Source: Oscillospiraceae bacterium (lineage in GTDB: Bacteria > Bacillota > Clostridia > Oscillospirales > Oscillospiraceae). Taken from it: a stretch of 64,000 bases of DNA. Below, one piece after another: positions 17,141 through 40,915 of this stretch. Position 1 is the stretch's first letter; each line of letters begins with the position of its first letter. Where the stretch lies: positions 1 to 64,000 of the forward strand of contig JAFYHU010000073.1 in the NCBI GenBank assembly GCA_017538965.1. The letters are read 5' to 3'. Made by a program: the position numbers and the translations under genes. The notes beneath the pieces are model-generated. The model did not search any database. It had not been told where the DNA came from and saw nothing but the letters and a program-made list of their open reading frames with translations.

Positions 17141-17215
17141 GGCACCGGGGACTGTCCTCTGTGTCGGTTCCCCCGTGAGAACCGACACTGTGGGACTGTC
17201 CCCTGTGCTGAAGCG
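17141..17215. repeat. dispersed palindrome C, copy 1 (covarying stem)
   Basis: A 75-base element with a nearly identical partner at 40841-40915. The core is a 10-bp stem GTGTCGGTTC (17161-17170) / GAACCGACAC (17179-17188). An outer imperfect pair GGGGACTGTCC / GGACTGTCCCC flanks it. The two copies differ at two stem positions on each side and pairing is kept. A TTTAAACTTTGGACTTT motif follows at about 17239-17255. Otherwise the 17080-17379 gap holds only a weak TATAAT at 17333. Confidence 0.85.
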
Positions 17216-17379
17216 TCCCCGCCGCAGCGGCATTTGCACTTTAAACTTTGGACTTTATTTTATCTCAAAATCAAGCTCCTTTGCAACCCGGAATTTTTAC
17301 AATTCCTTCTTTTTCTTTTTCTCCCTCTGCGGTATAATCATAATAATATCCCACATCAAACAACAGGAGTGTATTTTCC

Positions 17380-18102
17380 ATGACCATCGACAGAACCGCT
17401 GCCAAACTCCGCGCAAAGCAGCTGATTCGCGAGTCTCAGCCGAGTATGCTGACCGCTGCCATCATCTATATCCTGCTTTCTGCTCTGATCGGCTTCCTTT
17501 CCCTTCGCCTGACCGGAGTTGATACCGCCACCATGAACGAGATGCTTCAATATGCCTCCAACGGCAACTCGGAAGCCGCTATGAGTCTCATGACCCAAAC
17601 GACGCCCAGCGCCGGTGCCAGCCTGATCGACACGCTGCTCCACCTTGCGATCAGCATCGTCAGCGTCGGCTTCTCTCTCTTCGTCATGAATTCGGTCCGC
17701 CGGACGGAGCCAGCCCTCGGCAATCTTCTGGACGGCTTCGGCATGTTCCCGCGGGTGCTGTTTCTGATTATCCTTCAGACGCTCTTTATCTTTCTCTGGT
17801 CCCTGCTCTTCATCATTCCCGGAATCATCGCCGCTTATCGCTACAGCTTTGCGGTCTATATCATGATCGATCATCCCGAAATGAGTGCCATGGACTGTCT
17901 GAAAGAATCCAAACGCCTGACCAACGGTTATAAGAGCCAGTTGTTTACGCTGGACCTCTCCTTTATCCTCTGGCTGCTCCTGACCGCGATCCCTGTTGTC
18001 GGCTATATCGTCCAGGTGTATGTTACGCCCTACAGGGAAAGCGCCAGAGTCCTCTATTACGACCAAATCCGCACCCTTCAACCCGACTACGTAATCCAAT
18101 AA
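17380..18102 (+). CDS. DUF975 family membrane protein
   Basis: A 240-residue integral membrane protein with about five to six hydrophobic segments. It opens with TIDRTAAKLRAKQLIRE, typical of the DUF975 family, and has a conserved IIPGIIAAYRYSFAVYIMID near residue 145 and an amphipathic region around DCLKESKRLTNGYK. The function of the family is unknown. Acidic PEMSAMDCLKESK is the usual conserved cytoplasmic loop. ACAGGAGTG precedes the ATG. It is a single-gene unit. Confidence 0.85.
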   Translation: MTIDRTAAKLRAKQLIRESQPSMLTAAIIYILLSALIGFLSLRLTGVDTATMNEMLQYASNGNSEAAMSLMTQTTPSAGASLIDTLLHLAISIVSVGFSLFVMNSVRRTEPALGNLLDGFGMFPRVLFLIILQTLFIFLWSLLFIIPGIIAAYRYSFAVYIMIDHPEMSAMDCLKESKRLTNGYKSQLFTLDLSFILWLLLTAIPVVGYIVQVYVTPYRESARVLYYDQIRTLQPDYVIQ

Positions 18103-18103
18103 G

Positions 18104-18168
18104 CCTTCCCCCTTGGGGAAGGTGGCCGAGCATAGCGAGGTCGGATGAGGTCCCCGCGCCCGCAGGCG
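18104..18168. repeat. dispersed repeat B, copy 2
   Basis: CCTTCCCC-CTT-GGGGAAGG hairpin, then CCGAGCATAGCGAGGTCGG, GATGAGG and a CGCGCCCGCAGGCG tail. It starts two bases after the stop of the DUF975 gene and probably also acts as its terminator. Confidence 0.8.
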
Positions 18169-18192
18169 TCGTTTCCTTCTCTTCTCCCTCTT

Positions 18193-18301
18193 CCGTAGGG
18201 AGCGATCCCCAGATCGCTCCGCAATCCCCGCGCCCAGAGGCGCAGATGAGCTCCCCGCCGTAGCGGCATTTGAACTTTAAACTTTAAACTCTGAACTTTA
18301 A
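18193..18301. repeat. palindrome A copy 4 plus TTTGAACTTTAAAC motif
   Basis: CCGTAGGGAGCGAT-CCCCAG-ATCGCTCC at 18193-18222, a GCGCCCAGAGGCGC variant tail, then a run of ACTTTAAACTTTAAACTC units at about 18270-18300. Confidence 0.75.
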
Positions 18302-18350
18302 CAAGCAAAGGGACGTAGCTTAAAACGCAAAAATCAAGCAAAAAGACACC

Positions 18351-18405
18351 AGGGACGGTAATGGCAGCCATCACAAGAATCGGCTGCCGAACACCGTCCC
18401 TTTTT
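18351..18405 (+). repeat. dispersed palindrome D, copy 1 (terminator-like)
   Basis: Outer stem AGGGACGGT (18351-18359) / ACCGTCCCT (18393-18401), inner stem GGCAGCC (18363-18369) / GGCTGCC (18382-18388), then TTTTT. Other copies at 30766 and 42227 keep the outer stem but have different inner stems. Apart from this, the 18103-18782 gap holds repeats and the promoter of the next gene. Confidence 0.8.
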
Positions 18406-18667
18406 CGCATTTTCGCCTCCTTGCGTTCCAAACTCATGTCAAGCCCTTTGACCATCTTTCCAGCAACTCCGTCCCGGTGACTTATAATTTCAAAACAAAC
18501 CCTTTTTCTTACGATCTCGAAAAAAAGCATCACAATTTTCGCAAAATTTTCCGATTATTGATGCTTTTATTGACGGTGCATATGTTATAGTTGATTTATC
18601 CTGAGCGAACTATGCCGTTTTTTAGGTATTATTTGATGAAATTTAACAGTTTTATCCCCGCAAATAG

Positions 18668-18696
18668 TTGAAAAATCAGGCTGTTCATGCTAAAAT
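18668..18696 (+). promoter_or_regulatory. promoter of the LPXTG giant gene
   Basis: TTGAAA (18668-18673), 17-base spacer and TAAAAT (18691-18696), preceded by TGC (extended -10). The predicted leader is about 80 bases and contains a CGGTTT-TC-AAACCG hairpin (18728-18741). Confidence 0.65.
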
Positions 18697-18782
18697 AATA
18701 TGATTTTTCTACAATTCGATTTCTTTCCGGTTTTCAAACCGATTCTTCTTACCAAATCTTCGGGAAAGGGCAGGATTTGATT

Positions 18783-21700
18783 ATGAATGAGTCTACTCTG
18801 AACAGAATGATAAGGGAGCACAAGGAGCACGTGATCTGGGTTGCAGTGTTCCTGATTCTTGCTGTCTTTGTGACGGCTTTGACCTTTGGCACCCTGAAGA
18901 AGAGTGTCCAGGCCAAGACGTATACAAAGCGGGAATTCCAGTGCCCCTATGCCCAGGAAGGCGCCGAGCCCGTTGCCCATAAGCACAATGATGACTGCTA
19001 TGAGAACGGCGTCCTGATCTGCACGCTGCCCGAGCGTGAGCTCCACACCCACACCGATGAGTGCTACAGGGAAGAAAAGGTTCTGGTCTGCGGTCAGGAG
19101 GAGGGCGAAGGCCACGTCCACGACGAGTCCTGCTATACCGAAGAAACGGTGAACGTCTGCGGCCTCGAGGAGAGCGAGGGCCACTACCACGATGAAAGCT
19201 GCTATGATGAAGAAGGCAATCTGATCTGCACGCGCCCCGAAGGCGAAGGTCATACCCATACCGATGAATGCTTTGAAACCCGCCGCGTTCTGTCCTGCGG
19301 CAAGGAAGAGGGCGAAGGCGCCCACACCCATACCGATGCCTGCTATGAAATCCAGAAGGTTCTGATCTGCGACAAAGAAGAAGTAACGACCGAGCACGTT
19401 CATACCGCTGACTGCTTCAAAGTGGTCGATATGTCTCCGGAAGAGATCCGAGCCAAGACCATGAGCGAGCTTCCCGAGAGTGATATGACCGCCGATGTCG
19501 AATCTGCTGCCGATTGGGAGAGCAGATTCAGCAGCGTCACTCTGTCTGGTGATTGGGACAAGGATCTTCTGAAAATTGCCGAGACTCAGCTTGGCTACAC
19601 CGAGAGCCAGCGCAACTTCGATGTTGTTCCGGATGAAGAGGGCGAAGGATATACCATAAAAGGTTACACGCGCTATGGTGACTGGTACGGCATCCCGTAC
19701 GGCGACTGGTGCGCCATGTTCATTTCCTTCTGCCTGAATTATGCCGACATTCCCGAGACGGCCATTCCCTATGACTGCGCGACCACGACCTGGATCAAGA
19801 GTCTTTCCGAGCGCGGCATGTACGCCGACGCTTCCGATTACACGCCGAAGCCCGGCGACCTGATCTTCTTCGATTGGGAAGGAGACAAACTGTCCGACCA
19901 TGTCGGCATCGTTTGGGCGGTCAATCCGAACAGCATTACCACCATTGAAGGCAACCACACCGCTTCGGTCGAGTTCTTCGATTACGACCGCGATGACGGC
20001 CACATCCAGGGCTACGGCATCCTGCCCAAGAACCCGGATGCTCCGGCAGCTGACGAGGATGCTGAACCTTCCGACGAAATCACAGCCGGAAATACTATTA
20101 TTAATATCGACGAAACAGCGGCATCTGCTGCAGATTCGGGAGAGACTGCGGTATCTAATGCCGATGGTGCCGGTGCGGAAAGCAGCGTCCCCGCTGAGGC
20201 GGAGACGGGCGTCAGCATGCCGGAGTTCCATTACTCCGAGCGTGTCGCCGGCATGCGCGTCACGATCGACGCGGATGAAGGCGCCTTCCCGGAGGGCACG
20301 ACGGTTCAGATCACGGCCATCCAGGACGACAGCCTTGCAGAGCAGGTCGCCCCGGCTGTTACAACCGGGCACGTTGTGGAAGTCCAGGCGGTCGACATTA
20401 CCTTCTATGATGCAGAGGGCAACGAGATTGAGCCTCACATTCCGATTCGTGTGACCATGCGTCCCTTTACTGAGACGGCCGATGCTGATAACGTCGAGGT
20501 TGTCCATATGGATAACGACGGCACCGTTAGCGCGGTAAAGACCGATGAAAGCATCAAGCAGCCCGACAAAGGCGCCGCCTTTGACGCGGACAGCTTCTCA
20601 AAGTATATCCTTGTTTATACCGCGGACTTTGAATATAAAGTAAACGGGAAGGTTTACACCTTCTCCGTTCCCGGCGCACAGGACACCGCACTCTCTGCGA
20701 TTCTCACCGGCCTGAACATTGTTGATCAGACAGAAATCTCAGAATTCATGGGCAAGATCAAAGACGTCACCGTTTCGAATCCCGAGGTGCTGAAGCTTAC
20801 TGCTGCGGAAGGCGACTGGATGATATGCCCGGTCAAGGATTCCGAGCGGCAGGAATTCCTGACGATCTCCATGAAGGACGGCGCGGTCTTCGCCGTCAGC
20901 TTTGAAGCACACGGCATCACTGAGATCAGCACGGAAGACGAAACCGCCGTCATCTCCACGGTGAACGATTTCTATCTGCCTGATGATGCTTCAGCCTATG
21001 TTGAAGCTCTGCCCAAGCAGGAGAGTGAGGCTTCCATTGCTGCGGTGAAAGAGACTTCAGCAGCAAAACCGCTGTTCATTATTGATGAAGCGACGAACGA
21101 GAAAACAGCCTATCAGGTCTTCAACATTGGTCTGGAAAACGTTGAAGCAGGGGATTATCAGGACGGCTTTAAAGTAGAAGTCAAGATTGACGAGGATATG
21201 AACCTCGAAGGAAAAGATTTCCATATTTATCAGGTTCAGGATGGCAATACAACGGATCTGACGGAAACACTTGAGTTAAACGGTGATCAGAACGAATCTG
21301 GACTCCAGAATCTCCAGAGCTTCAGTTTCACGACGAACGAATTCGCGAATTTTGTCTTGAGCTATACCATGGAGACTCAGTACACGACCTTTGACGGCGT
21401 GACCTACAAGGTTACGATGAACTATGGCTCCGACGCCGGACTCCCCGAGGGTTCGGAACTGAAGGTCAGAGAGATCCTGCCTGAAGAGGAAGAATTTGCG
21501 CAGTATTATGCCGAAGCCACGAAAGCTGTCAGCGGTGAAGAGTCTTCCGAAGAGCTGACAGGGGCCGAGTATGCCCGTTTCTTCGATATCGAGATTTGGG
21601 TTGACGATCAGAAGGTCGAGCCGAAGGCTGCTGTCTCCGTGAGGATCGAACTGGAAGATGCGCCCAATTCGGAACTGAAGGTTGTTCACTTTGACGAGGA

Positions 21701-24700
21701 CGGCCCGGTTGTGCTGAATACGGAAAAGCAGACATCGACAGATATCAGCTTCGAAACCGATTCCTTCTCGATCTACGCTGTTCTTGCCAACTCTGGCAAT
21801 CCGACAGACTTGACGAATCTTGATGGCCGCACCTTTACGCTCAGTAGAGATAATGGATATTATGTGACTGCTGATGTAATAGGCAGACAGTATAATAAGT
21901 CAAATAACCAGGCTGACGTTGCTACATGGGTATTCGAAACTGCAGGGGCAGCATATTCCGGCTGGGGTGTATACAATATTTATACGTATGTAGATGGCGC
22001 AAAGAAATACATGAATCTCGTAAGCGATAATAGTGGTGATTCTCAGGCGTGGGCAGTTCTCAGCGATGATCCTCAGGCGTTTACGGTTCAAAAGGACGGG
22101 AACAGCAATAAGTATTATTTCGAAACCGAGAGTAATGGAAAGAAATACTATCTGAATGAGTTTGGCGGCAGCGGAACCGGATTCGCCGGTTGGCAAAGTC
22201 GTAATTCTGGAGATGATCTGTTTAATATCAATCTCTTCACCCCAGCGTCAGTCCAGCGTGAAACCGAAACCTATGCGGTGATCATCAAGAATCCGGCCAA
22301 TGACAAGTATTATGCGGTTCAGCACGATGGCAGCCTCCTTGAGGTGAGTTATTCTGTTGAGAATAATACTGCGGGAGTTCTTCTTGAAAACCCGCTCCTG
22401 TGGACATATACCAGCGTCCATGATGGCCTTGAAGATGCCGTTGAGGATGGTAAACATGTTTTAAATAATAATGGAGTCGCACACAGTGATTGGGAACCGT
22501 TTAACCTCCGTGCTGCGGCGGATGCAAGGAATTTTGACTGGAATCAATTGCCGAAGAGCTATTATTATCGTTATATTTCACCCCAAAAAGAAAATGGTAT
22601 TGATGAAGAAAATTCTGATAATGATAATTGGAACCATAACGACTCGAAGTGGTATAATGCTCTGAAATATGAAAACAATACGATATATAGTACTACGTGG
22701 AATGGCACGCAAAACGTATGCAATGGGCATTATATCGGCGCGGATTTCGAGAATCTCCATATAACCGGTAATCAAGATTCCGAGCATGCGGCAACGGTAT
22801 ATCTCGCGAAGCTTGAGAACCCACGGACTGTCGGATCGCGAAATGAAACTGTTTCGCACATCGATATTGGAATTATTGGGGATGCTGAACTGGAAATCCC
22901 TCTCGCCTATGGAGTGTATTATTACGATAACAATGGTACTTGGGAGACTCTTGATACCAGCGATGGTACGAATGTAACCCTTGATCTAAAGCAGGAAGTT
23001 CGTATCACAAAAAAAGACATGATGGATGCCACGATTACTGCGAGAGATAAGAATGGCAACCTGCTTGATGATGCCTTCTATATTACCGGTTATTCTGCAA
23101 ATGAGCATACTTCAACAAGTGCTGTACAGGTTCGCATGGAGGGTTCGTTTAAAGTAACGACACTTGATCCATATACTGGGAGGGATGATCCCAACAAAAA
23201 TCCTGATTGGCGAACAGCCCGCTTGAATAATCAAGTATATTATCAGGTTACAACAACAAAGGATATCACTTTTGATTGGAAGTATAACGGGCATCAGCTT
23301 TGTGATGAAGATGAAAATCCTTTGTCAATTACGGTTCCGATGAGTTTTTCAGTTAACTTTAGCTATTGGGATTCGGCTAACGAGTGTCCTCCGATTCTGC
23401 CTTACCCACACTATTTTGAAACTGATTATTTTGGCGGAGATAATGCTGGGCATAATTATGATTGTTGGATAAGGGGAGAGATTATTGACGGTCAGACGGA
23501 ATATCACTGGGCTGACAGTGGTATGGACTTTGTCATTGGAGCCAAAGAAGCGCGGGTAGACAATAGTGTTGCAGTAGAAATCATAAAAATACTTGAAGAT
23601 GAAGATGGAAATGTTATTCATCCGGCCAGTACTGTTACAAATTCCTTTGCTATCTATGGTAAAAGCGGAAACATTGAGGGTGATCTGAATAGCGTCCATA
23701 ACCTTGCCGTAACTCGGGCTAACGCTGTTTCTTCCGATTCGCTGATTTCACTTTATTCAGGTTATGATCTTGTAGATAATAAAACAATCGCTGTTGGCGA
23801 GTCAGGTTACGGTGTTACCTATGACTATATCGATCCGGGAATGTACTATATCACGGAAGACAGCAGCCCGATGGAAACTTCGGGAGCAAACAGAGTTATT
23901 ATGGACAAAGAGGGAAAAGACTGGAGCTATGTCAACACTAGAGTTGAGACAGAGTACGTTTGGAGAGATAACGGGTATAACAATCAGCGCCATGTAGCTA
24001 ATGGATATTCAGGCGTTCCTGAAGTGTTGGGTGCTTATAAGGATGATAAACAAATTGACCAAAACAACAAATTCCTGCAATTCTACGTTTATAATGTTTA
24101 TAAACAAGTAGGAGCTTTGAAGCTGCGAAAGCTTGTTGAGGTTGCGGGTCAAACGCCAACAGAAGATAATAAAGATCTTGTTGATGGCGCATACGATTTT
24201 TCCGTCACCGGGCCGGCAGGCTCTGACAGTCCCATTACGAAGTATGTCCGAATCGTTATTAAGAACGGACAAATGGACAACTACGATATCGTAGATGATG
24301 CTATTGATCTCTTCGGTAAGGATGGTTGGAGTAGTTTTGAGCCAGGAGAAGAAGACCGTTGGGTACTGATTGATGATCTTGCAGCCGGCGACTATGTGAT
24401 TCGGGAATTGGGTGCATATAAATGTGTGTATGACGATCCTGAATGCGGCATAAGAGCGACAGAGCCTCTTGAAGGGGTATCGTTGCTCAGTATCTCTGGC
24501 GGGAAAGATGATGCGAATCTGACAGAGCGAACGATAACAGTAACAGTTGCTAATGGTGATGAATGGGGGGATAGCGCCTCTGCTAAGGCAACATTTGTCA
24601 ACGGTACTACCTATACTTCGGTTCCGTTCAAAGCAAAAAAGACTTTCGAACAGCAGCAGCTGACGGAGAATCAATTCCAGTTCAGCCTGGTTGAATATCA

Positions 24701-27700
24701 GAATGCCTCATTTGACAGCGTAAAGGCAAATGGGGTAAATCAGGTAGTATCTAATTCTGCCCCTGCCGCAGGAAACAACTATGCTGATGTTGAATTTGAA
24801 GATCTAAAGATTACGAAACCCGGGACATACTATTTTCTCATTTCCGAAGTGGTCTCAGGCAATACCAACATTGTTTATGATACCCATCAGCAGAAAGTTA
24901 TTGTTACGGTAACGGCGGGCAGCAATGGTGCCCTGTCCTACACGAAATCTTATGATCCTGAGTTTACCGAAGAAGGCTATGATGCCTCCTTTGTGAACAA
25001 GATTGTCTCGCTTTCTCTGAAAAAGATCACGGAAGCGAGCGCGAACAATCCAGTAAATGGCGATATCACATTTACGGACGGGTCTTATACATTCAAGTTA
25101 ACCGGGCCTGCGCCGAGTGAGAATTCTCGTACTGTCGTTATTGCTGTGAAGGACGGTGAGATGACCGGGGCCACGATCGGTGGAACTGAAATCAACGCAG
25201 AGGGTACGGAAGTAATCTTTGATTCTGTTAACGGTGTAAGGTTTTATAACCTGGCTCCCGGTGAATACACCTTAACTGAGGAGAGGTGGAGCCTTTCGAA
25301 AACCTTGCCTGCGAATTCCGACATGTATCTGAAAAACATCGTGGTCACGCCCGCTGAAGGAAACAGTGTTAATACGACTGATAAATCGGCGACATTTACG
25401 ATCTCCGGTGGCACAGGAACAGGTTCGACTTCCGTTGCCGTTGATTACACTAACATTGTTGAGCCCAATAATCCGGTTCTGGAGAAACAGGTAAGCAATC
25501 TGAATGACTCTGTTGAAGTACCTGCTGAGACATTCAGAAGTGAAAGCCCGTGGAACAAGAGCGCGGACTATGACATCGGCGATGAGGTGCCCTATCGGAT
25601 TACAACAAATTTGCCCAGCGGCTATTATCGCTCATTGGAATCCTATACGTATATCATCTCCGACGAGATGAATCATCTGCAATATGTCGGAGGTAGTGGA
25701 AAAATGTACGCTTACGTCAAGAGCGACAGTGACAGCGACACCGGAGCATGGTATGACGTGAGCGATTGGTTCTCGGTGACTGAGGGAACATATGCGGAAG
25801 GAAAGCAGATCATAAGCGTTTCTCCGACCGATAGCAATGACCTGAAGAAAATTGTTACAGGAAAACTGGTCACAAACTGGGAAGGCGCCGATACCCATGG
25901 GGACGACTATCCGTACAAGGTTCCTTCACTTGCGGATGCGACGCCCATCACCAATGATGACATTCGCTATCTGCAGTTCCGTTATAAGGCAGTGCTTCAG
26001 GCAGACGCCAATATCGGCCCTGCTGTTGGCAACACGAACACGGCAGTTTTGACGTACTCGAATGGACCGTCTACCGCGACGTCGAATGAAGATACCAACG
26101 TTGTTTATACCTATAAACTTATCGTAAACAAAACGGACGGAACAAATCCTCTGTCCGGTGCGGAATTCCAGTTGTTCAAGAAGTATAAGACCGACGGTGA
26201 CAGTGATACTATCAACCTCCAGGGGTTAAAGGATGGCGTCACGGTTGATACTTCAAGAATCATTGCGAGTAATTCCGGCATGCGTGGTAATTACCGTCTC
26301 GTCAATGCAATTTCGGCAAGTGCAGATGATGCGACACAGTTCGCTTGGAATGGCCTTGATGACGGCAATTATATCCTTGTCGAAACCAAAGCACCTGATA
26401 GATATAATCCGCTTCCAGAACCGGTTGCATTTACGATCAGTACGGGCCTTAAAACGGATGAACCTGGATTCATAACATCCCAGGCAATTGTGAATGTGTT
26501 CCCAGAGGGCGCGCTGACATTTGATAAAGATTTAGCTGGAAGCGGCACGATAACCACAGCCGTCCCCAACCGGCTCACACAGGTCGTGGACGTTCCGGTC
26601 GAGAAGACCTGGGCGAATAATGATTATGACGACGCCAATAATGACTATACTTGGACGGCGACCTTTATCCTGACACAAAAAGAGGAACTTGTGCCTGGCA
26701 GCACCGCTGTGACAAATTATATCAAGGATTGGACGCCGGTATCGCCTGAAAAGAAATTGACGGTGACAAAGGGTGCAACTGAGGATGCCGTCAAATTCAA
26801 AAACCTGCCTCAATTCCACGAGTATGGGGCTAACAGTATTTACAAGGTGCTGTATTCCGTGAAGGAAGTCGCATATGAGGTAAAGCAGGGAGAAACTGTT
26901 ATCGCAAAATGGGATGAGCGCAATGGCCTGACCGTTGGAGACCATCGCTACGTGCCTCAGGTCACTCATGCCGCTGGAGAACCGATCGAAACGCAGTCAG
27001 GAGAAAGCCAGCCGACTGATACCCAGATCTACACCATCACCCTGCAAAACAAGGTTGAAAACTTCACTCCTTCTGGAGAAAACATCGATGTCACCCTGAA
27101 AAAGAATTGGGATAGCGCGGAGTTTCCCAATGGCAGTCTCCCCAATGACGCAAGCGCCACTTTCAGCCTGAAGCGCTATTACCAAGAAGGCTACAGGGAA
27201 TACACAGATAATTATGATTCGTCAGTAGACTATACGGTTAGAGTTGGCAACTATAATACCGGTAGTTATACCGTCACAGATAGTTTGATCGTTAAGAAAG
27301 GGACGAATATACATTTCACTGCGACCTTTGAAACAGAGGACACGGGAAAAGGCACCGTGATTTTCAAGACAGGAAATGGTGGAGACGAAAAAAAGTTTTC
27401 GAAGCAAAACGATGAGAGACTGGCAACACCAAAAACGGTAGTCTTCGGAACCTATGAAGTGTTGGCTGATGTTGATTTTGTCGTTGAAGGGTTGAACTGC
27501 GTACGTGATTGTGGCATTATTGACTTTACAACAAATGGCGAATGGATACCTGATACAGCGTTCCATCGGGATATTACGGTGAGCAACAATAACAATTGGC
27601 AGGAAACCATCAGCAACCTGCCCTCAAAGGCGACCGACAATTCAGGAACAGAGCGCATTTACTCCTATTACTTTGAAGAAATTGAATCCAATCCTGCCGG

Positions 27701-29921
27701 TTGCTATTCGACCTATGTACAGGATGGTACAAACGACCCGCTGGGTGATGTGAGCCACCGCATCACCAATGAAGCCATAATTAAAGCCACCAACAAGCAT
27801 CGCACGACTTTCAAGGTTACGAAAGAATGGCTGGATCTGCTGGGCACGGATCTTCCTTCTTACCCAGAAGTTTACTTTACTCTTTATTGGATGCGCGAAG
27901 GCGAGACGAGCACCAATAACATGTATGTATACCGTCCCGGCGGTCCCAACGACAATACCTTCGTGGATATCCCGTTGAACAAGGATAACGACTGGACTTG
28001 GGTATGCCCGGTGCAGCTTCCTGAGAAATACGACGATAGTCACGATGCTGTATTCTTCGCTGTGGAAACCCCGAAGGTCGCGCAAAGTCCCGGAAATTAC
28101 AGTAATGTGATCAAGACTGACCCGGATTATGATACGATCGGTTCTAATATTGTTATTACGTTGGACGGCTACAGAAGCAAGGATAAAGCTGGCGAAGGAC
28201 CATGGAAGCAAGAGGCGGAGAATACTACTGGGAGTAATGGCATTGTGACAGAAGCCAGAGTTCTGCCTACTCAGCCGTATTACGCTGCCGTTGGTAACTC
28301 GGGTGAAATCCAGATTCGTAATAAAACTCTCAAGTATATGCAGATGGACCTCAAGAAGAAGTTTTTGGTGTATGCAAGAAACGCGACCGATAATGGTTTT
28401 GACCTGCTGACTCTGACCTCCGATAGTACCGCAAAGCATGATCTGGTGATAGAGATTCGGATTATGCGACGGACTCTCGAATACAATGCTCCTTCTGATA
28501 TACCTAGTAGTGACAGCCGTGTGCTTGTGGATTGGACTCAGTATGGGAAGAATATACTGATTGGTTATAACCATGAGGGCACTGCGGTTTTCAAGAATGG
28601 AGACGAAAACGGAGATAATCCGTTCCAGATCCGTTATGCGGGCGATTGGCACTGGACCATTGATGACAGTAACCAGAATCAGGGACTGCCTGCCTACGGT
28701 ATCCACGATGGACAGCGTGTTCGTTATCAGTATTTTCTGGAAGAACTCAATGCATATCAAGATCTCCAGAAAAACCCGCTTGAACCGACACATCCGTTCT
28801 ATGGCTTTGAGTGGTCGAACATTCTGCCCGCAGCCTGGGATGGCAACGGAACTCAGGTAGAGATGTTCCCAAAGATTGTTGCTCAGGATCAGGACCGCCT
28901 GGTTAACCTGCAGACCACCGACCTTACGATTACAAAGACTTGGAACGGTACCAAACCGAGTGATGTGCAGGAAGTTTACGTCAAGGTTCTTCGTCGCACA
29001 GGTAGAGAAGGCGTAGCAGGGGATCCGGAAGACTTTACAAACAAGCTGCAGATTTCAGAAGAGCATGCTTTGGGACAGATCGTTGACGGCTATGTTTCAG
29101 CGAGTCAGATCCGCACAGTGAATGGCGAGAAGTATCTTGTCATTCCTGCAAATGGCGGCTCAGTGACGATCAATCATGTGCTGACAGTGAATCCGTTCTA
29201 TGATGGAGGTCAGGACCGCGTCTATTACTTCAGCGTTCAGGAATGCGGCTATAAGGATGCATCTGGCGAACATTGGAGTACCAGTGATGTCGAACAGTTT
29301 AATCCGCAGTACTCATTCTCCGATTCGCTGGGACAGACTGCCGGCTCGACAATGTTTGTTCTCGGAAAGACAGGCACTAACACATTCACGATTACCAACT
29401 CACCGCCGGCAACTATCGATATCAACATTGTCAAAGTTGAGAAAGACACAAATATAGAACTAAGTGGAGCGGTATTCTCCATTGCTAAGAAGAATACGCA
29501 GAGCGGCAGTTATGAGACCATGACAAACCTCATATTCGAGCCGAATAACGTGTTTGACAGCACTGAACACACCTTTACGGTTCCAAAAGATGGAGTAAAA
29601 CTGAAAGGGCTTGACGCAGGTTCCTATAAGCTTACAGAGATTGCTTCACCGGCGGGTTATCTGATTACTTCGAATAATTCACCGCTGTTTTTCGATGTGG
29701 ATAACCGTGGAAATGTTACAATCTCAAGTGAGAGTACAGAGAAAGGAACAACGATCGTATACGATGCCACAACTCAGACATTCACAGTTCCGAATACTCC
29801 AGGTCAGGAGCTGCCGGAGACCGGTGGGGCCGGAATAGGCCTGTTCGCCCTGATCGGCGGGCTGATGGTCGGGACGGCCGGAGCGGCGCTGCTGCTGAGA
29901 AAGAAAAAGAACAAAGCATAA
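18783..29921 (+). CDS. giant LPXTG-anchored surface protein with His/Cys repeats, CHAP domain and Cna-B/SpaA domains
   Basis: A 3712-residue protein expected to be covalently attached to the cell wall by sortase. Residues 17-38 are a membrane/signal segment. Residues 67-211 hold seven His-x-His-x3-Cys modules spaced 22-24 residues apart. A CHAP-type peptidoglycan hydrolase domain follows (about 255-415) with Cys310 in GDWCAMF and His373 in DHVGIV. Next come a spacer and a module of about 130 residues (21370-21790) also found in the other giant protein. The rest is Ig-like: FctA-type pilin isopeptide domain near 1946, SpaA domains near 2446 and 3548, and Cna-B domains near 2603, 2770, 3010 and 3380. 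It ends with LPETG (3677-3681), a hydrophobic stretch and RKKKNKA. No sortase is in the window. The ATG at 18783 follows GGGCAGG. DNA between about 21790 and 24600 is AT-richer than its flanks. Confidence 0.9.
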   Translation: MNESTLNRMIREHKEHVIWVAVFLILAVFVTALTFGTLKKSVQAKTYTKREFQCPYAQEGAEPVAHKHNDDCYENGVLICTLPERELHTHTDECYREEKVLVCGQEEGEGHVHDESCYTEETVNVCGLEESEGHYHDESCYDEEGNLICTRPEGEGHTHTDECFETRRVLSCGKEEGEGAHTHTDACYEIQKVLICDKEEVTTEHVHTADCFKVVDMSPEEIRAKTMSELPESDMTADVESAADWESRFSSVTLSGDWDKDLLKIAETQLGYTESQRNFDVVPDEEGEGYTIKGYTRYGDWYGIPYGDWCAMFISFCLNYADIPETAIPYDCATTTWIKSLSERGMYADASDYTPKPGDLIFFDWEGDKLSDHVGIVWAVNPNSITTIEGNHTASVEFFDYDRDDGHIQGYGILPKNPDAPAADEDAEPSDEITAGNTIINIDETAASAADSGETAVSNADGAGAESSVPAEAETGVSMPEFHYSERVAGMRVTIDADEGAFPEGTTVQITAIQDDSLAEQVAPAVTTGHVVEVQAVDITFYDAEGNEIEPHIPIRVTMRPFTETADADNVEVVHMDNDGTVSAVKTDESIKQPDKGAAFDADSFSKYILVYTADFEYKVNGKVYTFSVPGAQDTALSAILTGLNIVDQTEISEFMGKIKDVTVSNPEVLKLTAAEGDWMICPVKDSERQEFLTISMKDGAVFAVSFEAHGITEISTEDETAVISTVNDFYLPDDASAYVEALPKQESEASIAAVKETSAAKPLFIIDEATNEKTAYQVFNIGLENVEAGDYQDGFKVEVKIDEDMNLEGKDFHIYQVQDGNTTDLTETLELNGDQNESGLQNLQSFSFTTNEFANFVLSYTMETQYTTFDGVTYKVTMNYGSDAGLPEGSELKVREILPEEEEFAQYYAEATKAVSGEESSEELTGAEYARFFDIEIWVDDQKVEPKAAVSVRIELEDAPNSELKVVHFDEDGPVVLNTEKQTSTDISFETDSFSIYAVLANSGNPTDLTNLDGRTFTLSRDNGYYVTADVIGRQYNKSNNQADVATWVFETAGAAYSGWGVYNIYTYVDGAKKYMNLVSDNSGDSQAWAVLSDDPQAFTVQKDGNSNKYYFETESNGKKYYLNEFGGSGTGFAGWQSRNSGDDLFNINLFTPASVQRETETYAVIIKNPANDKYYAVQHDGSLLEVSYSVENNTAGVLLENPLLWTYTSVHDGLEDAVEDGKHVLNNNGVAHSDWEPFNLRAAADARNFDWNQLPKSYYYRYISPQKENGIDEENSDNDNWNHNDSKWYNALKYENNTIYSTTWNGTQNVCNGHYIGADFENLHITGNQDSEHAATVYLAKLENPRTVGSRNETVSHIDIGIIGDAELEIPLAYGVYYYDNNGTWETLDTSDGTNVTLDLKQEVRITKKDMMDATITARDKNGNLLDDAFYITGYSANEHTSTSAVQVRMEGSFKVTTLDPYTGRDDPNKNPDWRTARLNNQVYYQVTTTKDITFDWKYNGHQLCDEDENPLSITVPMSFSVNFSYWDSANECPPILPYPHYFETDYFGGDNAGHNYDCWIRGEIIDGQTEYHWADSGMDFVIGAKEARVDNSVAVEIIKILEDEDGNVIHPASTVTNSFAIYGKSGNIEGDLNSVHNLAVTRANAVSSDSLISLYSGYDLVDNKTIAVGESGYGVTYDYIDPGMYYITEDSSPMETSGANRVIMDKEGKDWSYVNTRVETEYVWRDNGYNNQRHVANGYSGVPEVLGAYKDDKQIDQNNKFLQFYVYNVYKQVGALKLRKLVEVAGQTPTEDNKDLVDGAYDFSVTGPAGSDSPITKYVRIVIKNGQMDNYDIVDDAIDLFGKDGWSSFEPGEEDRWVLIDDLAAGDYVIRELGAYKCVYDDPECGIRATEPLEGVSLLSISGGKDDANLTERTITVTVANGDEWGDSASAKATFVNGTTYTSVPFKAKKTFEQQQLTENQFQFSLVEYQNASFDSVKANGVNQVVSNSAPAAGNNYADVEFEDLKITKPGTYYFLISEVVSGNTNIVYDTHQQKVIVTVTAGSNGALSYTKSYDPEFTEEGYDASFVNKIVSLSLKKITEASANNPVNGDITFTDGSYTFKLTGPAPSENSRTVVIAVKDGEMTGATIGGTEINAEGTEVIFDSVNGVRFYNLAPGEYTLTEERWSLSKTLPANSDMYLKNIVVTPAEGNSVNTTDKSATFTISGGTGTGSTSVAVDYTNIVEPNNPVLEKQVSNLNDSVEVPAETFRSESPWNKSADYDIGDEVPYRITTNLPSGYYRSLESYTYIISDEMNHLQYVGGSGKMYAYVKSDSDSDTGAWYDVSDWFSVTEGTYAEGKQIISVSPTDSNDLKKIVTGKLVTNWEGADTHGDDYPYKVPSLADATPITNDDIRYLQFRYKAVLQADANIGPAVGNTNTAVLTYSNGPSTATSNEDTNVVYTYKLIVNKTDGTNPLSGAEFQLFKKYKTDGDSDTINLQGLKDGVTVDTSRIIASNSGMRGNYRLVNAISASADDATQFAWNGLDDGNYILVETKAPDRYNPLPEPVAFTISTGLKTDEPGFITSQAIVNVFPEGALTFDKDLAGSGTITTAVPNRLTQVVDVPVEKTWANNDYDDANNDYTWTATFILTQKEELVPGSTAVTNYIKDWTPVSPEKKLTVTKGATEDAVKFKNLPQFHEYGANSIYKVLYSVKEVAYEVKQGETVIAKWDERNGLTVGDHRYVPQVTHAAGEPIETQSGESQPTDTQIYTITLQNKVENFTPSGENIDVTLKKNWDSAEFPNGSLPNDASATFSLKRYYQEGYREYTDNYDSSVDYTVRVGNYNTGSYTVTDSLIVKKGTNIHFTATFETEDTGKGTVIFKTGNGGDEKKFSKQNDERLATPKTVVFGTYEVLADVDFVVEGLNCVRDCGIIDFTTNGEWIPDTAFHRDITVSNNNNWQETISNLPSKATDNSGTERIYSYYFEEIESNPAGCYSTYVQDGTNDPLGDVSHRITNEAIIKATNKHRTTFKVTKEWLDLLGTDLPSYPEVYFTLYWMREGETSTNNMYVYRPGGPNDNTFVDIPLNKDNDWTWVCPVQLPEKYDDSHDAVFFAVETPKVAQSPGNYSNVIKTDPDYDTIGSNIVITLDGYRSKDKAGEGPWKQEAENTTGSNGIVTEARVLPTQPYYAAVGNSGEIQIRNKTLKYMQMDLKKKFLVYARNATDNGFDLLTLTSDSTAKHDLVIEIRIMRRTLEYNAPSDIPSSDSRVLVDWTQYGKNILIGYNHEGTAVFKNGDENGDNPFQIRYAGDWHWTIDDSNQNQGLPAYGIHDGQRVRYQYFLEELNAYQDLQKNPLEPTHPFYGFEWSNILPAAWDGNGTQVEMFPKIVAQDQDRLVNLQTTDLTITKTWNGTKPSDVQEVYVKVLRRTGREGVAGDPEDFTNKLQISEEHALGQIVDGYVSASQIRTVNGEKYLVIPANGGSVTINHVLTVNPFYDGGQDRVYYFSVQECGYKDASGEHWSTSDVEQFNPQYSFSDSLGQTAGSTMFVLGKTGTNTFTITNSPPATIDINIVKVEKDTNIELSGAVFSIAKKNTQSGSYETMTNLIFEPNNVFDSTEHTFTVPKDGVKLKGLDAGSYKLTEIASPAGYLITSNNSPLFFDVDNRGNVTISSESTEKGTTIVYDATTQTFTVPNTPGQELPETGGAGIGLFALIGGLMVGTAGAALLLRKKKNKA

Positions 29922-32801: not shown

Positions 32802-32830
32802 GTATTTTTCAAAAAAGGAAGGAAACACTT

Positions 32831-33903: not shown

Positions 33904-33960
33904 CATTGCAACGAAGAGCATATAATCCGGAGCTTGAGAGAAGCAAAATCAGGAGAAGGT

Positions 33961-36900: not shown

Positions 36901-37314
36901 GGGAAACGCCGCAGCGGTATCCTGACCGACAGCGGGGAAGTTCTCCTCGCCTGGGAAAAGGTCGCCGAAGGCGAGAAACCGATTTACCGGCCGGTGAAGA
37001 CGACCAGATCGAACCCTGAAATTTCGAAAAAGGATTTTGATCTGCTGCACAGCTTTCTGGACAACAGCCTGCGCCGCATGGGCGAAGACATCCACGGCGG
37101 CAGCATCGAGGCCGCTCCGGCCTGGGTCTCGGAGACGGAGAACGCCTGCAGCCATTGCGACTTTCTCAGTATCTGCGGCTTTTCCGAGGGCGAAGGGGGA
37201 GATCGCTGCGTCCTGACGCCCCGCCTGGACGATCAGCAGGCCTGGGAGGCCATCCGGAGCGCGGAGGCTGCCTCCGCGCAGGACGGACAGGCTGAGGAAG
37301 GAGGCCGCGCATGA
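33961..37314 (+). CDS. addB: ATP-dependent helicase/nuclease subunit B
   Basis: A 1117-residue partner of AddA in double-strand break resection for recombination. The N-terminal Walker A is GKVRSGKT (residues 6-13). The C-terminal nuclease has IVDYKTGKKQF at about residue 905. Cysteines for the [4Fe-4S] latch are at about 753 (DCRFAYF) and in CSHCDFLSIC near 1061-1070, matching the C-...-CxxCxxxxxC pattern of Bacillus AddB. The ATG at 33961 follows AGGAGAAGG; the frame is open about 100 bases further up, through repeat B, but has no support there. It overlaps addA by 4 bases. Confidence 0.96.
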   Translation: MRFLIGKVRSGKTALIIREIREAVEKGSGRSLLLVPEQYSHEAERELCAVCGDRLSRYAEVMSFSGLARFSMSVHGGLARRRMDEAGRLLCMAVALQEIRPVLHVYESAAENIDLQAVLLKELDNLNTAAANSDALRRTASELEGDLGEKLKELALIRDAWEAVVTRSGASAEDPLQILASQIRDFGLSGFDRIYVDGFIDFTGLEHAVLKAMLARGLSLTVCLPGTENMRGEEFLLPSHLARTRLTEDAEDFGVPVEVLTVEDKKDAGSLRRFADAMFDYAAEAAEAGDRAICLLRPENPRAECELAAAAILDAVRLDGCRWRDIAVAVRGFEDYRGMLESCFRRYGIPLFLSRREPVNEKPLPFWIDCLYDVVLGGFDTEDMTAFLRCGLSGLSEEDCDLLCDYLFRWQLRAPAWMNPDPWQQHPDGYSRPWTDEVREKLRAVEKARRRISGSLLRFRERALQADSCVAQAEALADYMKESGLQEQLKKRVERLGTEGRLELRAQYLQLWDICCDAVRQSAQIPGDMPMDARSYQKLLRTMFSRYDVGVIPVALDRVSAGDFDRMRRRNIRRLFVLGCSDGRLPADHAPVGLFTDDERDLLAEHDILIGGGEAELWREYAMIHHTLSLPSEQLILSAPATDLNGSLSEPAGVWKQAKRIFCLTEEKGSPDAARLRAPLPALALAARSGQANAGAEADAAARWFREQNPGRLEALQEKTCRDRGSLSKTAVEALYGRHLRISPSRLEKFSDCRFAYFCSYGLKAEPYEPAGFRPPEIGTFMHAVLENTAREVAARGGFRKVSDDELDEITRDVIDAYAADQLGGLREKSPRFAHLFRRLCDDARRVVRDTAEELRRSDFVPLRFELDISSLGIRLGDEENAVNLTGIADRVDGWTDRDGQLWLRIVDYKTGKKQFCLSDLIYGKNMQMLLYLFALCDRAGELFGRKAQPAGVLYLPAHEDLLQFDRRPEADDEDKERKKGKRRSGILTDSGEVLLAWEKVAEGEKPIYRPVKTTRSNPEISKKDFDLLHSFLDNSLRRMGEDIHGGSIEAAPAWVSETENACSHCDFLSICGFSEGEGGDRCVLTPRLDDQQAWEAIRSAEAASAQDGQAEEGGRA

Positions 37315-40300
37315 GCTTTACGTCTTCACAGCGGGAGGCGATTACCTGCCGGGACGGCAGCGTTCTCGTCTCGGCCGGCGCGGGAAGCGGAAAGACCCGC
37401 GTCCTGACCGAACGCCTGATGGAATACATCGATCCGAAGCTCTCCGACCGTCCGCCCGAGGACCTGGACCGCTTCCTGATCATCACCTTTACGCGTGCGG
37501 CCGCGGGCGAACTCAAAGCGCGCATCGCCGGCGCCATCGCCGCGCGCCTGCAGGAAGATCCGCAGAACGCCCATCTGCGCCTGCAGATGCTGAAGTGCCG
37601 CAGCACCGAAATCGGCACGATTCACTCCTTCTGTGCCAATCTCCTGCGCCGTTATGCCGACCTTGCCGGCATTTCGCCGGGCTTTCGCATTCTCGAGGAC
37701 GAGCGCAGCGAGCGCATGCGTCAGCAGGCGCTTGAGCGGGTGCTGGAAGCGAGCTACGAGGAAGCCGAAGAAGATTTTCTCCTCCTGGCGGACAGCGTCG
37801 GCATCGGCCGCGACGACCGCCGCCTGGCCGATCTGGTGCTGAAGCTGCACGGCGAGATGCAGAGCCATGCCCGGCCGGAGCTCTGGGCGCAGGCGCTAAT
37901 CCGGGAGGGCGAAGTCCGCCCCGCTTCGGCGCTCGAAACCCGCTGGGGAAGGGAACTGCTTCAGCAGGCGCAGGAGGAAACGGACTTCCATCTCTCACGG
38001 ATGATCGATTCCCTTGTCGACATGTCCTCCGTGGAGGCGATCTCCCGTGCCTATGCGGACAGCTTTTCCGAGACCCGGCGCGCGCTGCAGAGACTGTCGG
38101 AAGCCCTGGATCAGGGCTGGGATGCGGCAGCTGCCTGCCTCCCGATCCCGTTCCCGAGAATCAACAAGGTTGCGAACAATCCCGACCCGGCGCTGAGCGA
38201 GGAGCTCAAGGCTCGGCGGGAGGACTGCAAGAAGGCGATGGGGAAGCTGGCGAATGTCTTCAGTCAGGACGAGCAGAGCATGCTGGACGACTGGCAGCAG
38301 ACAGCCCCCGCCATGGCCACCCTGCTGCGTCTGGCGCTGAAGCTGGAGGACGAATTCAGCCGGATGAAGCACCGTCAGGATCTGCTGGACTTCAACGATC
38401 TCGAGCATCTGGCCCTGCGTGTGCTGCTCGATGACGAGGGGAACGAGACGGACGCCGCCCGCGAGATTGCCGCGAAGTACCGCGAGGTCATGGTGGACGA
38501 ATATCAGGATGTCAGCCGTGTGCAGGACCGGATTTTCCATGCCGTGAGCCGGGAAGGGAAGAACCTCTTCTTCGTCGGCGACGTGAAGCAGTCGATCTAT
38601 CGCTTCCGCCTGGCCGATCCCGGCATCTTTACCGAAAAAAGCCGCCGCTTCGGCGAGGAGGAAAACAGCCGCGGCGAACGTCTGATCCATCTGCAGGAGA
38701 ACTTCCGCTCGCACCCGACGGTGATTGACGCCGTCAACGCGGTTTTCCGCCGCTGCATGACCGAGCGCCTCGGCGATATCGACTATTGCGGAGCGGAAGA
38801 GCTGATTGCCGGTCGGCCGGACGAGACACCGGGCGAAAAGCCGGAGCTCCTCCTGATTGACCGCGGAGAATCCGAAGCCGCAGCCCTCGAGCTCGAAGCC
38901 AGGCAGGTGGCGGCCGAAATCCGCTGTCTCCTGCGAACCTGCCGCGTCCCCGCGGAAGGCGGAGACCGGCCGCTGCGCTGCGGCGATATTGCGATTCTGC
39001 TGCGCGCCGCCAATACGGTCGGCGGGCAGTTCCGGCGTGTGCTGCTCGACGAGGGCATCCCCGTTGCCGCCGGCTTCGGCGGAGACTTTTACAGCAGTAC
39101 CGAGGTGACGGCGGTCTATTCGATGCTCTGCCTGCTGGATCAGCCGCATCAGGACATCCCGCTGCTCTCTCTCCTGCGCTCTCCCTGCTTCTCCTTCAGC
39201 GCCGACCGACTCAGCCTGATCCGCGCTAAAACCCCCGACACGGACTTCTATACCGCGCTCTGTGCGTCGGAAGACCCCGAAAGCCGGCAGTTTCTTGCGC
39301 TCTACCGGAAGCTGCGTTCCGATGCGCCCGACTGCAGCCCGAAGGAACTCATCGAGCGGATCATCGAGGAACTGGACCTCTATACGCTCTGCAGCGCCAT
39401 GCCCGACGGCGAGCGCCGTCTCGGGCGCCTGGACGATCTGCGCCGCCTCGCCGAGAACTTTTCCCGGGGCGGGGAGATCGGCCTGCACCGCTTCGTGAGC
39501 TTCCTGAAGTCCGTGCAGGAGAAGGAGCGCGAGCCGCAGGGCTGCGCCATCGATGCCGACGCGGTACAGCTGCTGTCCATCCACCGCTCCAAGGGCCTGG
39601 AGTACCCGGTCGTGTTCTGCTGCGGCCTGGGGCGCCTCTTCAACCGCCAGGATCTGACGGGTGCCGTCCTGATCCATCCCGAGCTGGGCCTCGGCCCGAA
39701 GGTCACCGACAGCCGGCGCAAACTGGAGTACCCGACTGCGGCGCGGCATGCCGTGGAAAGGAGACTGAAGCGCGAAAGCCTTTCCGAAGAGCTGCGCCTT
39801 CTGTATGTCGCCATGACCCGCGCCCGCGAGCGTCTGATTCTGACCGCTTGCGTCAAAAACCCGGAAAAACTGCTCGAAGAAACCGCGCGGCTGCAGGGCT
39901 TTTCGGTGATCCCGGCGCCCTTGCTGCAGAGCGCCTCCGCGCCGCTGCCCTGGCTGCTCCCGGCAGCGCTGGACGGCTCGGCGCTCCGCCTCCGCCGCGT
40001 CGGACCTGATTTGGAAAGCATCCCGGCCTCAGCAAATACAGAAAACGATGAAAAGACGCAGCAGTGTGAAGCACTCGATCGCCTTGTCTCCGAAACCCTT
40101 CTCTGGTCCTATCCCTGGCCCGATGCTGTCTTTCAGCCTTCCAAGATCACCGCGACCGAGCTCAAGGCCGCGCAGGAACCCGACCCCGAAGCCGCCTCTG
40201 TCTTTCCGCAGCGGGCCTTCCGTCCCGGGAGCCCTCTGGACGAGAAGCTATCTGCCGCCGAGCGCGGCACGGCCATGCACCTGGTCCTGCAGCAGATCGA

Positions 40301-40742
40301 TTTCCGGAAAACCGGCAGCCTCGAAGCCATCCGGGAAGAGCTATGCCGCCTGACCGCGCAGGAGTTCCTGACCCCCGAAGAGGCCGCGACCGTGGACACG
40401 GAGCGCATCCTCCTCTTTTTCGCTTCCCCGCTGGGAACGAGAATGCGCCGGGCCGAACACTGCGAGCGCGAATTCCGCTTCTCCCTTCTCCGGACAGGGG
40501 ACGGTTCTCTGTCTGCTCTTCTGCAGGGCAGTGTCGACTGCTTCTTTGAAGAGGACGGCGGCCTCGTCGTGGTCGATTACAAGACCGACCGCGTGGAAAC
40601 GGAGGAAGAGCTCCGCAGCAGGGCGGAGTATTACCGCATCCAGCTCGATACCTATGCCCTCGCCCTCGAGCGCATTTTCTCCCTGCCCGTCCGTGAAAAA
40701 ATCCTCTGCTTCCTCCGCCCCGGTAAAACGATAACCCTATAA
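37311..40742 (+). CDS. addA: ATP-dependent helicase/nuclease subunit A
   Basis: A 1143-residue UvrD-like 3'-5' helicase with a C-terminal nuclease. It shows Walker A SAGAGSGKT (residues 21-29), FTRAAAGELKARI (motif Ia), motif II VDEYQDVSRVQ near 395, motif III FVGDVKQSIYRFRLADP, motif V/VI LSIHRSKGLEYPVVF and LYVAMTRARERL, and the nuclease motif VVDYKTDRV near 1087. With AddB it processes DNA ends to Chi-like sites. It starts in the ATGA overlap with addB. Dispersed repeats follow immediately; no clear terminator other than those hairpins. Confidence 0.97.
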   Translation: MSFTSSQREAITCRDGSVLVSAGAGSGKTRVLTERLMEYIDPKLSDRPPEDLDRFLIITFTRAAAGELKARIAGAIAARLQEDPQNAHLRLQMLKCRSTEIGTIHSFCANLLRRYADLAGISPGFRILEDERSERMRQQALERVLEASYEEAEEDFLLLADSVGIGRDDRRLADLVLKLHGEMQSHARPELWAQALIREGEVRPASALETRWGRELLQQAQEETDFHLSRMIDSLVDMSSVEAISRAYADSFSETRRALQRLSEALDQGWDAAAACLPIPFPRINKVANNPDPALSEELKARREDCKKAMGKLANVFSQDEQSMLDDWQQTAPAMATLLRLALKLEDEFSRMKHRQDLLDFNDLEHLALRVLLDDEGNETDAAREIAAKYREVMVDEYQDVSRVQDRIFHAVSREGKNLFFVGDVKQSIYRFRLADPGIFTEKSRRFGEEENSRGERLIHLQENFRSHPTVIDAVNAVFRRCMTERLGDIDYCGAEELIAGRPDETPGEKPELLLIDRGESEAAALELEARQVAAEIRCLLRTCRVPAEGGDRPLRCGDIAILLRAANTVGGQFRRVLLDEGIPVAAGFGGDFYSSTEVTAVYSMLCLLDQPHQDIPLLSLLRSPCFSFSADRLSLIRAKTPDTDFYTALCASEDPESRQFLALYRKLRSDAPDCSPKELIERIIEELDLYTLCSAMPDGERRLGRLDDLRRLAENFSRGGEIGLHRFVSFLKSVQEKEREPQGCAIDADAVQLLSIHRSKGLEYPVVFCCGLGRLFNRQDLTGAVLIHPELGLGPKVTDSRRKLEYPTAARHAVERRLKRESLSEELRLLYVAMTRARERLILTACVKNPEKLLEETARLQGFSVIPAPLLQSASAPLPWLLPAALDGSALRLRRVGPDLESIPASANTENDEKTQQCEALDRLVSETLLWSYPWPDAVFQPSKITATELKAAQEPDPEAASVFPQRAFRPGSPLDEKLSAAERGTAMHLVLQQIDFRKTGSLEAIREELCRLTAQEFLTPEEAATVDTERILLFFASPLGTRMRRAEHCEREFRFSLLRTGDGSLSALLQGSVDCFFEEDGGLVVVDYKTDRVETEEELRSRAEYYRIQLDTYALALERIFSLPVREKILCFLRPGKTITL

Positions 40743-40749
40743 ACCTTTA

Positions 40750-40820
40750 CCGTAGGGAGCGATCCCCAGATCGCTCCGCAAATAAATCCCCCGTAGGAAA
40801 CGATCCCCAGATCGCTCCGC
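40750..40820. repeat. palindrome A, copies 5 and 6 in tandem
   Basis: CCGTAGGGAGCGAT-CCCCAG-ATCGCTCCGC at 40750-40779, then CCGTAGGAAACGAT-CCCCAG-ATCGCTCCGC at 40791-40820. The second copy has two changes in the left arm that break two stem pairs. Confidence 0.8.
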
Positions 40821-40840
40821 AATCCCGCGCCCCCAGCGAA

Positions 40841-40915
40841 GGCACCGGGGACTGTCCTCTGTGTCAGCTCCCCGGTGAGAGCTGACACTGTGGGACTGTC
40901 CCCTGTGCTGAAGCG
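40841..40915. repeat. dispersed palindrome C, copy 2 (covarying stem)
   Basis: It matches 17141-17215 at 70 of 75 positions. The 10-bp core stem is GTGTCAGCTC (40861-40870) / GAGCTGACAC (40879-40888). Four of the five differences are paired changes within this stem; the fifth is in the loop. Confidence 0.85.

Follow-up and report, generated by a model that had tools for sequence, protein, structure and literature searches.

The stretch analysed here (the window) comprised the first 64,000 nucleotides of contig JAFYHU010000073.1 (C69) from an Oscillospiraceae bacterium (GenBank assembly GCA_017538965.1; 3.39 Mb in 91 contigs, 94% complete) and contained two copies of a 75-bp palindromic dimer. 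The positions of these copies and of the 10-bp core stem within each were as follows.

17141–17215, strand unassigned: copy 1 of the palindromic dimer, with arms 17141–17170 and 17179–17209
17161–17170, plus strand: 5' arm of the copy 1 core stem, GTGTCGGTTC, which pairs with 17179–17188
17179–17188, plus strand: 3' arm of the copy 1 core stem, GAACCGACAC
40841–40915, strand unassigned: copy 2 of the palindromic dimer
40861–40870, plus strand: 5' arm of the copy 2 core stem, GTGTCAGCTC, which pairs with 40879–40888
40879–40888, plus strand: 3' arm of the copy 2 core stem, GAGCTGACAC

Copy 1 was located between divergent genes of the GntR/FCD type (16351–17079, minus strand) and the DUF975 type (17380–18102, plus strand) and copy 2 was flanked by addA and by a gene for which neither Pfam nor NCBIfam gave a hit. 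By reading, both copies were intergenic, in agreement with a first-pass annotation of this DNA according to which neither encodes protein. A mechanically called frame of 115 codons (17175–17522) that covered part of copy 1 and overlapped the DUF975 gene was taken as spurious.

As noted in the same annotation, copies 1 and 2 were identical at 70 of 75 positions, the differences being at positions 26, 28, 34, 41 and 43. Four of these five differences were accounted for by two full pair swaps in the core stem (G-C to A-T at 26/43 and T-A to C-G at 28/41) and the fifth, at position 34, was in the loop. Two or more complete swaps resulted from five random substitutions in a fraction of only 0.00015 of 2,000,000 draws (0.032 for at least one swap), and chance origin of the two swaps was ruled out on this basis (approximately 1.5e-4), the draws having been made with equal base rates rather than under a phylogenetic model. 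The palindrome extended beyond the core stem to a total of 27 pairs, and comparison of the fold of both copies with shuffled sequences gave z values of -6.5 to -7.6, with none of 200 shuffles equal, for DNA or RNA and for either strand.

A blastn search of the same genome (E≤10) returned eight rows, namely five good copies (C69:17140, C52:11085, C69:40840, C22:18027 and C9:13812), a short piece (C36:16452) and two rows with an E value of 1.46. The five copies, dispersed on four contigs, were 89–100% identical to copy 1 and intergenic by reading, although mechanical frames ran over copy 1, C52 and C9. Written in a single orientation, the five inner bases of each core stem were GGTTC/GAACC in copy 1, AGTTC/GAACT in C52, AGCTC/GAGCT in copy 2, AGTTC/GAGCT in C22 and AGCTC/GAGAT in C9. 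Thus, the core stem of C52 was the exact intermediate between those of the two window copies, that of C22 was half-way at one pair, with a T-G wobble, and that of C9 contained a broken pair. Over all five copies, 21 of the 27 pairs were invariant, three were fully swapped (including a C-G to A-T swap in the outer arm), one showed a one-sided change only (G-U to G-C) and two showed unpaired departures only; one-sided states were counted at two pairs, one of which was also a swapped pair. Full swaps were far beyond chance and unpaired changes were not rare. Paired cells made up 98.5% of the total, and the covariation score was reached by 7 of 500 shuffles, the corresponding numbers for other measures ranging from 7 to 324 of 500. 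The earlier claim that drift alone would not produce such paired changes was borne out by this score and by that of 12 related genus elements described below (0 of 500 shuffles). The observation named in the first-pass annotation as contrary to a selected or corrected hairpin, unpaired stem changes as common as paired ones, was closely approached if wobble was counted (three swapped pairs as opposed to two broken and two one-sided, one of the latter also swapped).

All five copies had in common a C-T mismatch, two T-T mismatches and a one-base bulge. The arms of any one copy were 77–81% identical whereas 5' arms of different copies were 91–97% identical, the pattern expected of a kept fold with fixed irregularities and not of whole-arm copying. 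The core variant of this family was GGGACWGTCC, and the outer arms divided the copies into two sub-groups (GCAC/GTGC and GAAC/GTTC). In both window copies, the minus strand carried the motif GGGGWSAS as GGGGACAG, and GGGGACTG, at the other end, was one base off this motif. The GTAG or GTGG foot of repetitive extragenic palindromic (REP) stems was absent from all five copies, and the longest T run in the 26 bases past the stem, where a terminator would carry one, was 1–3.

No copy of the 75-bp element was found by blastn (E≤0.01) in the 101 other genomes of the genus. A covariance model built from the five own copies (R1) matched 17 of 102 same-genus genomes, own included (E≤0.01), and a second model built from 12 genus elements (R2), which was run on the genomes it was built from, matched 21 of 102 (E≤1e-5). 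Genomes rather than rows were counted, since palindrome matches on both strands appear twice in match tables. Most R1 matches, of approximately 55–80 bp, had the order outer arm, GGGGACGGTTC(T), inner arm, loop and then the reverse complement, and each half was itself a hairpin (arm-core-arm') in several of them; off this plan were L071, a single hairpin, and L069, L072 and L077, which were spaced hairpins. Thus, the related elements were mostly inverted hairpin pairs with a near-constant core, GGGGACGGTTC, inside changing stems, and the folding of the window copies, together with the half-hairpin architecture of the genus copies, identified the dimer as two inverted REP-like units that form one hairpin.

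Among 22 such elements, identity between the arms of one element averaged 84% (71–100%) and identity between 5' arms across genomes 73% (58–92%); arms matched better within than between elements, but imperfectly. Double changes were seen at 15 of 28 pairs among 12 chosen genus dimers, in which 89.6% of cells were paired compared with 78.1% in shuffles and the covariation score was 0.364 compared with 0.155, none of 500 shuffles reaching the former value; sliding the alignment by 1–3 columns reduced pairing to 35–50%. The 12 were the 14 aligned genus elements minus G008 and G064, which were among the less well paired (arm identity 82% and 71%, respectively), and seven others (L055, L060, L063, L069, L072, L077 and L081) were never in this alignment, so the count leans to regular elements. 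A joint alignment of the five own and 14 genus elements was left out of the pair counts because the own inner 3' arms were one base out of register. One palindrome of the related family, L075 (G021:C13:25053–25111), was 59 bp long with arms matching at 27 of 27 positions and was read in frame inside a 377-codon open frame, carA-like by reading. At L153 (approximately 5560–5600 of G045:C88), a GACAGGGGACGGTTCTCTGTC hairpin was inside a frame collinear with addA in the sister genome.

The sister genome, G045, was collinear with the window around both copies and lacked the element at both syntenic sites. The distance between aligned blocks was 47 bp in G045 compared with 204 bp in the window at the copy 1 site and 133 bp compared with 309 bp at the copy 2 site, and no match to the element was found in G045 by blastn or with R1. 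Genomic neighbours differed between copies.

Hairpins with the same core were also noted at the ends of genes for REP-associated tyrosine transposases (RAYTs), a profile for which matched 14 of 102 genus genomes (E≤1e-15) and 24 of 400 family genomes (E≤1e-20), own included. Among the 44 loci given, such hairpins were present upstream of the RAYT in plus sense in 31 of 40 usable loci, downstream in minus sense in 26 of 42 and at both ends in 23 of 38, as opposed to 10 of 448 control windows at least 450 bp from RAYTs. In named genomes, for the most part Clostridia and relatives of Bacillus, the best 80 loci gave corresponding numbers of 38 of 76, 30 of 79 and 22 of 75, with 15 of 850 control windows. 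A hairpin at one end at least was thus seen in 34 of 44 and 46 of 80 loci of these two sets, which overlap (L238 is G045:C88), and the transposase family occurs in gut and soil Firmicutes. The core was near-constant and the stem varied between RAYT loci. The two ends of one RAYT, however, shared a stem, with 5.79 of 7 arm bases matching compared with 3.36 when loci were shuffled (computed on the 34 of 72 loci in which each end carried the motif). Cores followed one another at the ends of the gene as they do inside dimers, so a dimer looks like the element minus its gene. Of the 14 genus loci that have an upstream flank, 13 carried a TTGACA box at or just past the hairpin (counted by eye). A C-terminal tail resembling a helix-turn-helix (HTH; SIRQLSRLTG-like) was also seen by eye, and Pfam HTH_23 gave weak matches in 5 of 10 RAYT members (best E 0.0019) and none in the window protein at E≤1. 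Other Y1 genes were rejected as hosts of the system; among 11 IS200-like or other Y1 loci, two carried the motif GGGGACNG in bare form, at distances of 711 and 289 bp from the frame.

The 75-bp family itself was connected to RAYTs by its core variant GGGACWGTCC, which was present on both sides of two RAYTs among 317 loci, L136 (same family) and L314 (a metagenome-assembled Lachnospiraceae genome), both outside the own genome and both with flanking stems that differ from those of the 75-bp family. Among the 102 genus genomes, RAYTs and R1 matches occurred together in 7, RAYTs only in 7, dimers only in 10 and neither in 78 (p=0.0018, or p=0.0055 without the own genome); the corresponding numbers for R2 were 9, 5, 12 and 76 (p=0.00014), p values that ignore the kinship of genomes. 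By reading, dimers and RAYT ends shared a stem in G017, G021, G046 and G091.

RAYTs are discussed as domesticated transposases with repeats that form populations inside genomes. From the above results, we consider that the 75-bp copies are, with a probability of roughly three in four, REPIN-like miniature non-coding elements of a TIRYT/RAYT system that has the fold as its substrate. Of the two possibilities raised in the first-pass annotation, a selected hairpin is thus the better fit, the fold being that of a mobile element of RAYT type and not of an RNA gene, because no Rfam family was found at gathering score in the window, neighbours differ between copies and the sister genome has no element at either window site. 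The element would consist of two inverted copies of the terminal hairpin of a RAYT/TIRYT (a tyrosine transposase of the HUH class whose C-terminal tail is HTH-like), each hairpin bearing a near-constant core in a stem that differs from transposase to transposase. Mobilisation would begin with exposure of the element as single-stranded DNA, which would then fold and be cut and re-joined in trans by whichever RAYT served the family. If stem pairing outweighs stem sequence, selection on folding would act at transposition and spreading copies would therefore have compensated stems, while settled copies would decay through unpaired changes. A transposase that reads the fold would let pairs swap while irregular sites stay, as in the 75-bp family.

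Published systems are compared here on the basis of the available parts of each paper. The dimers resemble the REPINs of Pseudomonas fluorescens SBW25 (PMC3116915), which are inverted REP doublets folded as one hairpin, dispersed in intergenic positions and tied to a RAYT, which measure 71 bp between invariant 16-mers and in which compensatory changes were reported in 2011 to be common. In contrast with SBW25, where the conserved 16-mer overlaps the REP, the constant core of the present elements was between the arms of each half-hairpin, and the copies were few (five). The 75-bp element, which lacks GTAG, is not a strict REPIN, and the nearest family is the terminal repeat of TIRYTs. In TIRtrons/TIRYTs (Di Nocera 2013, PMC3733652), RAYT-like genes are flanked by terminal inverted repeats (TIRs) unrelated to GTAG REPs. 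Some TIRYT repeats share GGGGWSAS, which GGGGACAG fits; some TIRs are self-complementary, many occur in dimers or clusters, some genomes hold moderately abundant families and sub-families exist with alternative complementary stem residues. Neither 'Firmicutes' nor 'Clostridi' occurs as a word in the main text of that paper. The present analysis works out that each transposase has its own stem, the same at either end, around a core that stays constant, a point that the paper may already show in part.

The RAYTs themselves can be likened to TnpA-Y1 subclass 2.1 (PMC6006769), by its description and not by its profiles, in that members have a median length of 238 aa, an HTH-like C-terminal extension and NHVH and Y--NP motifs. 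Of 26 described TIRYTs, 20 were placed in that subclass, with GGGG[AT][CG]A[CG] in their flanking inverted repeats. According to the available parts of the same paper, genes of subclass 2.1 have no REP-like sequences nearby, whereas hairpins were found here at one end or both in the proportions of RAYT loci given above. TnpA-REP enzymes of E. coli and others differ from the present system in that their repeats have a GTAG foot and the transposases belong to groups 2/3 (PMC8266576). With TnpA-REP, replacement of stem parts by their complement has little or moderate effect, cleavage falls when a perfect stem is given a mismatch and E. coli REPs require a fixed bulge or mismatch (PMC8266576). Compared with the available accounts, what is new is the rule of a constant core and a changing stem in Bacillota and the combination of hairpins at both gene ends with dispersed dimers, which extends the reports on subclass 2.1 (PMC6006769) and TIRYTs (PMC3733652). 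RAYTs like those of subclass 2.1, reported without REP-like sequences (PMC6006769), albeit with inverted repeats in other phyla (PMC3733652), have terminal hairpins at their genes in many Bacillota, with matching dispersed dimers in one genus. Stem change that preserves pairing provides a natural experiment on how RAYTs may recognise a fold.

Several findings weigh against a RAYT-mobilised element. In three of the seven genomes that have both, dimers mostly differed in stem from the RAYT ends by reading, stem sharing being absent in G000 and G090 and limited to one of five in G052. The own genome (94% complete) yielded no RAYT that matches in both stem and core; its two RAYTs of the TIRYT-like type have other stems, and the one in the window also lacks the catalytic tyrosine. 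Ten of the 17 genomes with R1 matches showed no such RAYT at E≤1e-15, and neither end hairpin was present in 10 of 44 and 34 of 80 RAYT loci, including those with flanks cut by contig ends. With only five copies and one swap private to copy 1, the proposal that spreading lineages compensate and settled copies decay rests on few changes. The blocks absent from G045 exceed the element and contain other repeats, so exact insertion of the element was not isolated and gain is the likelier, unproven direction; neither a target-site rule nor an excision product was shown.

Among other explanations, hairpin-templated correction fared best. A mutation in one arm would be copied to the other during replication by quasipalindrome template switching, for which studies in E. 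coli exist (PMC7202029), and complementarity would be kept without selection. Evidence for this process came from G025, in which ten copies differed by a mean of 34% (11–61%), core included, yet mismatched their own arms at only 35 of 277 sites. In columns 4–27 of these copies, 33 paired departures (12 of them transversions) were counted as opposed to 17 unpaired, approximately 2.5 paired departures being expected by chance. No RAYT of the TIRYT-like type was found in G025 (86% complete) at E≤1e-15, the one PF01797 match being of another kind by reading, and either the transposase was lost or missed or pairing was kept in place. It is conceivable, if doubtful, that in some hosts such as G025 far-diverged palindromes are kept self-complementary in place, whether through repair templated by the hairpin or through use of the fold by the host, and evolve as single 'folded' units without a transposase; copies of this kind test whether palindromes correct themselves. 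As a general explanation, template switching is unlikely. Correction over whole arms, the other possibility raised in the first-pass annotation, fits the own family badly because nearby pairs swap whereas none of the five copies has lost the three mismatches and the bulge; the core stem and G025 remain compatible with it. Arms that agree less within copies than between them, uncorrected changes in C22 and C9 and an asymmetric mismatch common to three of five G048 copies also argue against correction.

It is quite improbable that the copies arrived independently from different source families by horizontal transfer, with pair differences that are old and predate this genome. The two outer-arm sub-groups and the absence of blastn copies from the rest of the genus are in keeping with such an origin, but the intermediate core stems of C52 and C22 fit stepwise change in one lineage. 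Least probable of all, by a small step, are host RNA structures such as transcription terminators or mRNA 3' ends selected site by site. In favour of these, 6 of 23 copies surveyed (20 from relatives and 3 own) were between convergent genes and 13 between tandem genes, many near a stop codon, many palindromes of L218–L237 were near a stop codon (within approximately 25 bp) or between convergent genes (coarse gene calls in both cases) and some G025 copies ended in short A and T runs. Against them, none of the five 75-bp copies had a T run longer than 3 past the stem, two (copy 1 and C22) were between divergent genes by reading, the mechanical call for C22 being tandem, and the points made above against an RNA gene apply.

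Two further candidates found no support, an RNA gene or riboswitch, since no Rfam family reached gathering score, the one threshold applied, in the window and neighbours change, and phage or plasmid cargo, since blastn (E≤0.01) gave no match in either of two collections. The pattern of the 75-bp family likewise had no matches in collections of genome contigs and of viral contigs, which may not include the own or near genomes, and matches listed for the motif words in the literature were unrelated by title.

Of the two RAYTs in the own genome, that on C26 had AAGTTGTCAAG-gggacggttct-CTTGACAACTT upstream and a close copy downstream in the same sense. The other was associated with the following features of the window.

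42339–43082, plus strand: RAYT-like gene of the same kind of system, with Phe (RFICQNP) where a catalytic Tyr is usual, a candidate only for serving the 75-bp copies
42219–42280, strand unassigned: imperfect dimeric palindrome upstream of the RAYT-like gene, with GGGACGGTTC...GAACCGTCCC arms, which fails the simple-hairpin test
42279–42307, plus strand: promoter-like TTGACA (42279–42284) and TATAAT (42302–42307), 17 bp apart, recognised by eye at the edge of the upstream palindrome

The predicted protein scored 23.9 bits with PF01797 (cut-off 23) and 57.1 bits with NCBIfam REP_Tyr_transpos, below the cut-off of 80. The HUH motif was present as HAH in YCLMGSHAH, and the tyrosine expected in Y--NP was replaced as listed. 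Tyr occupied this site in 77 of the best 80 named relatives and Phe in one, from the sister genome, two being unread. The gene itself failed the end-hairpin test, with no downstream hairpin left. The Tyr-to-Phe change was also seen in G045, where the gene was syntenic on both sides, and in G058, where it was syntenic on the downstream side (the contig ends inside the gene), and dN/dS relative to the window gene was 0.15 and 0.18, respectively. The gene may be a RAYT that has been domesticated and is deficient in cleavage.

A second palindrome, CCGTAGGGAGCGATCCCCAGATCGCTCC, which is intergenic and has a GTAG tag, was present in six copies in the window.

1183–1215, 10307–10339, 16317–16349, 18193–18225, 40750–40782 and 40791–40823: copies of the GTAG palindrome

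The GTAGGGAGCGATC part of this palindrome also occurred on either side of another Y1 gene (L012, on C64), and the own genome thus seems also to contain an ordinary REPtron of the GTAG kind. Elsewhere in the window, very long open frames of 3714 and 5484 codons with internal repeats (18777–29921 and 47352–63806, respectively) look like genes for giant surface proteins.

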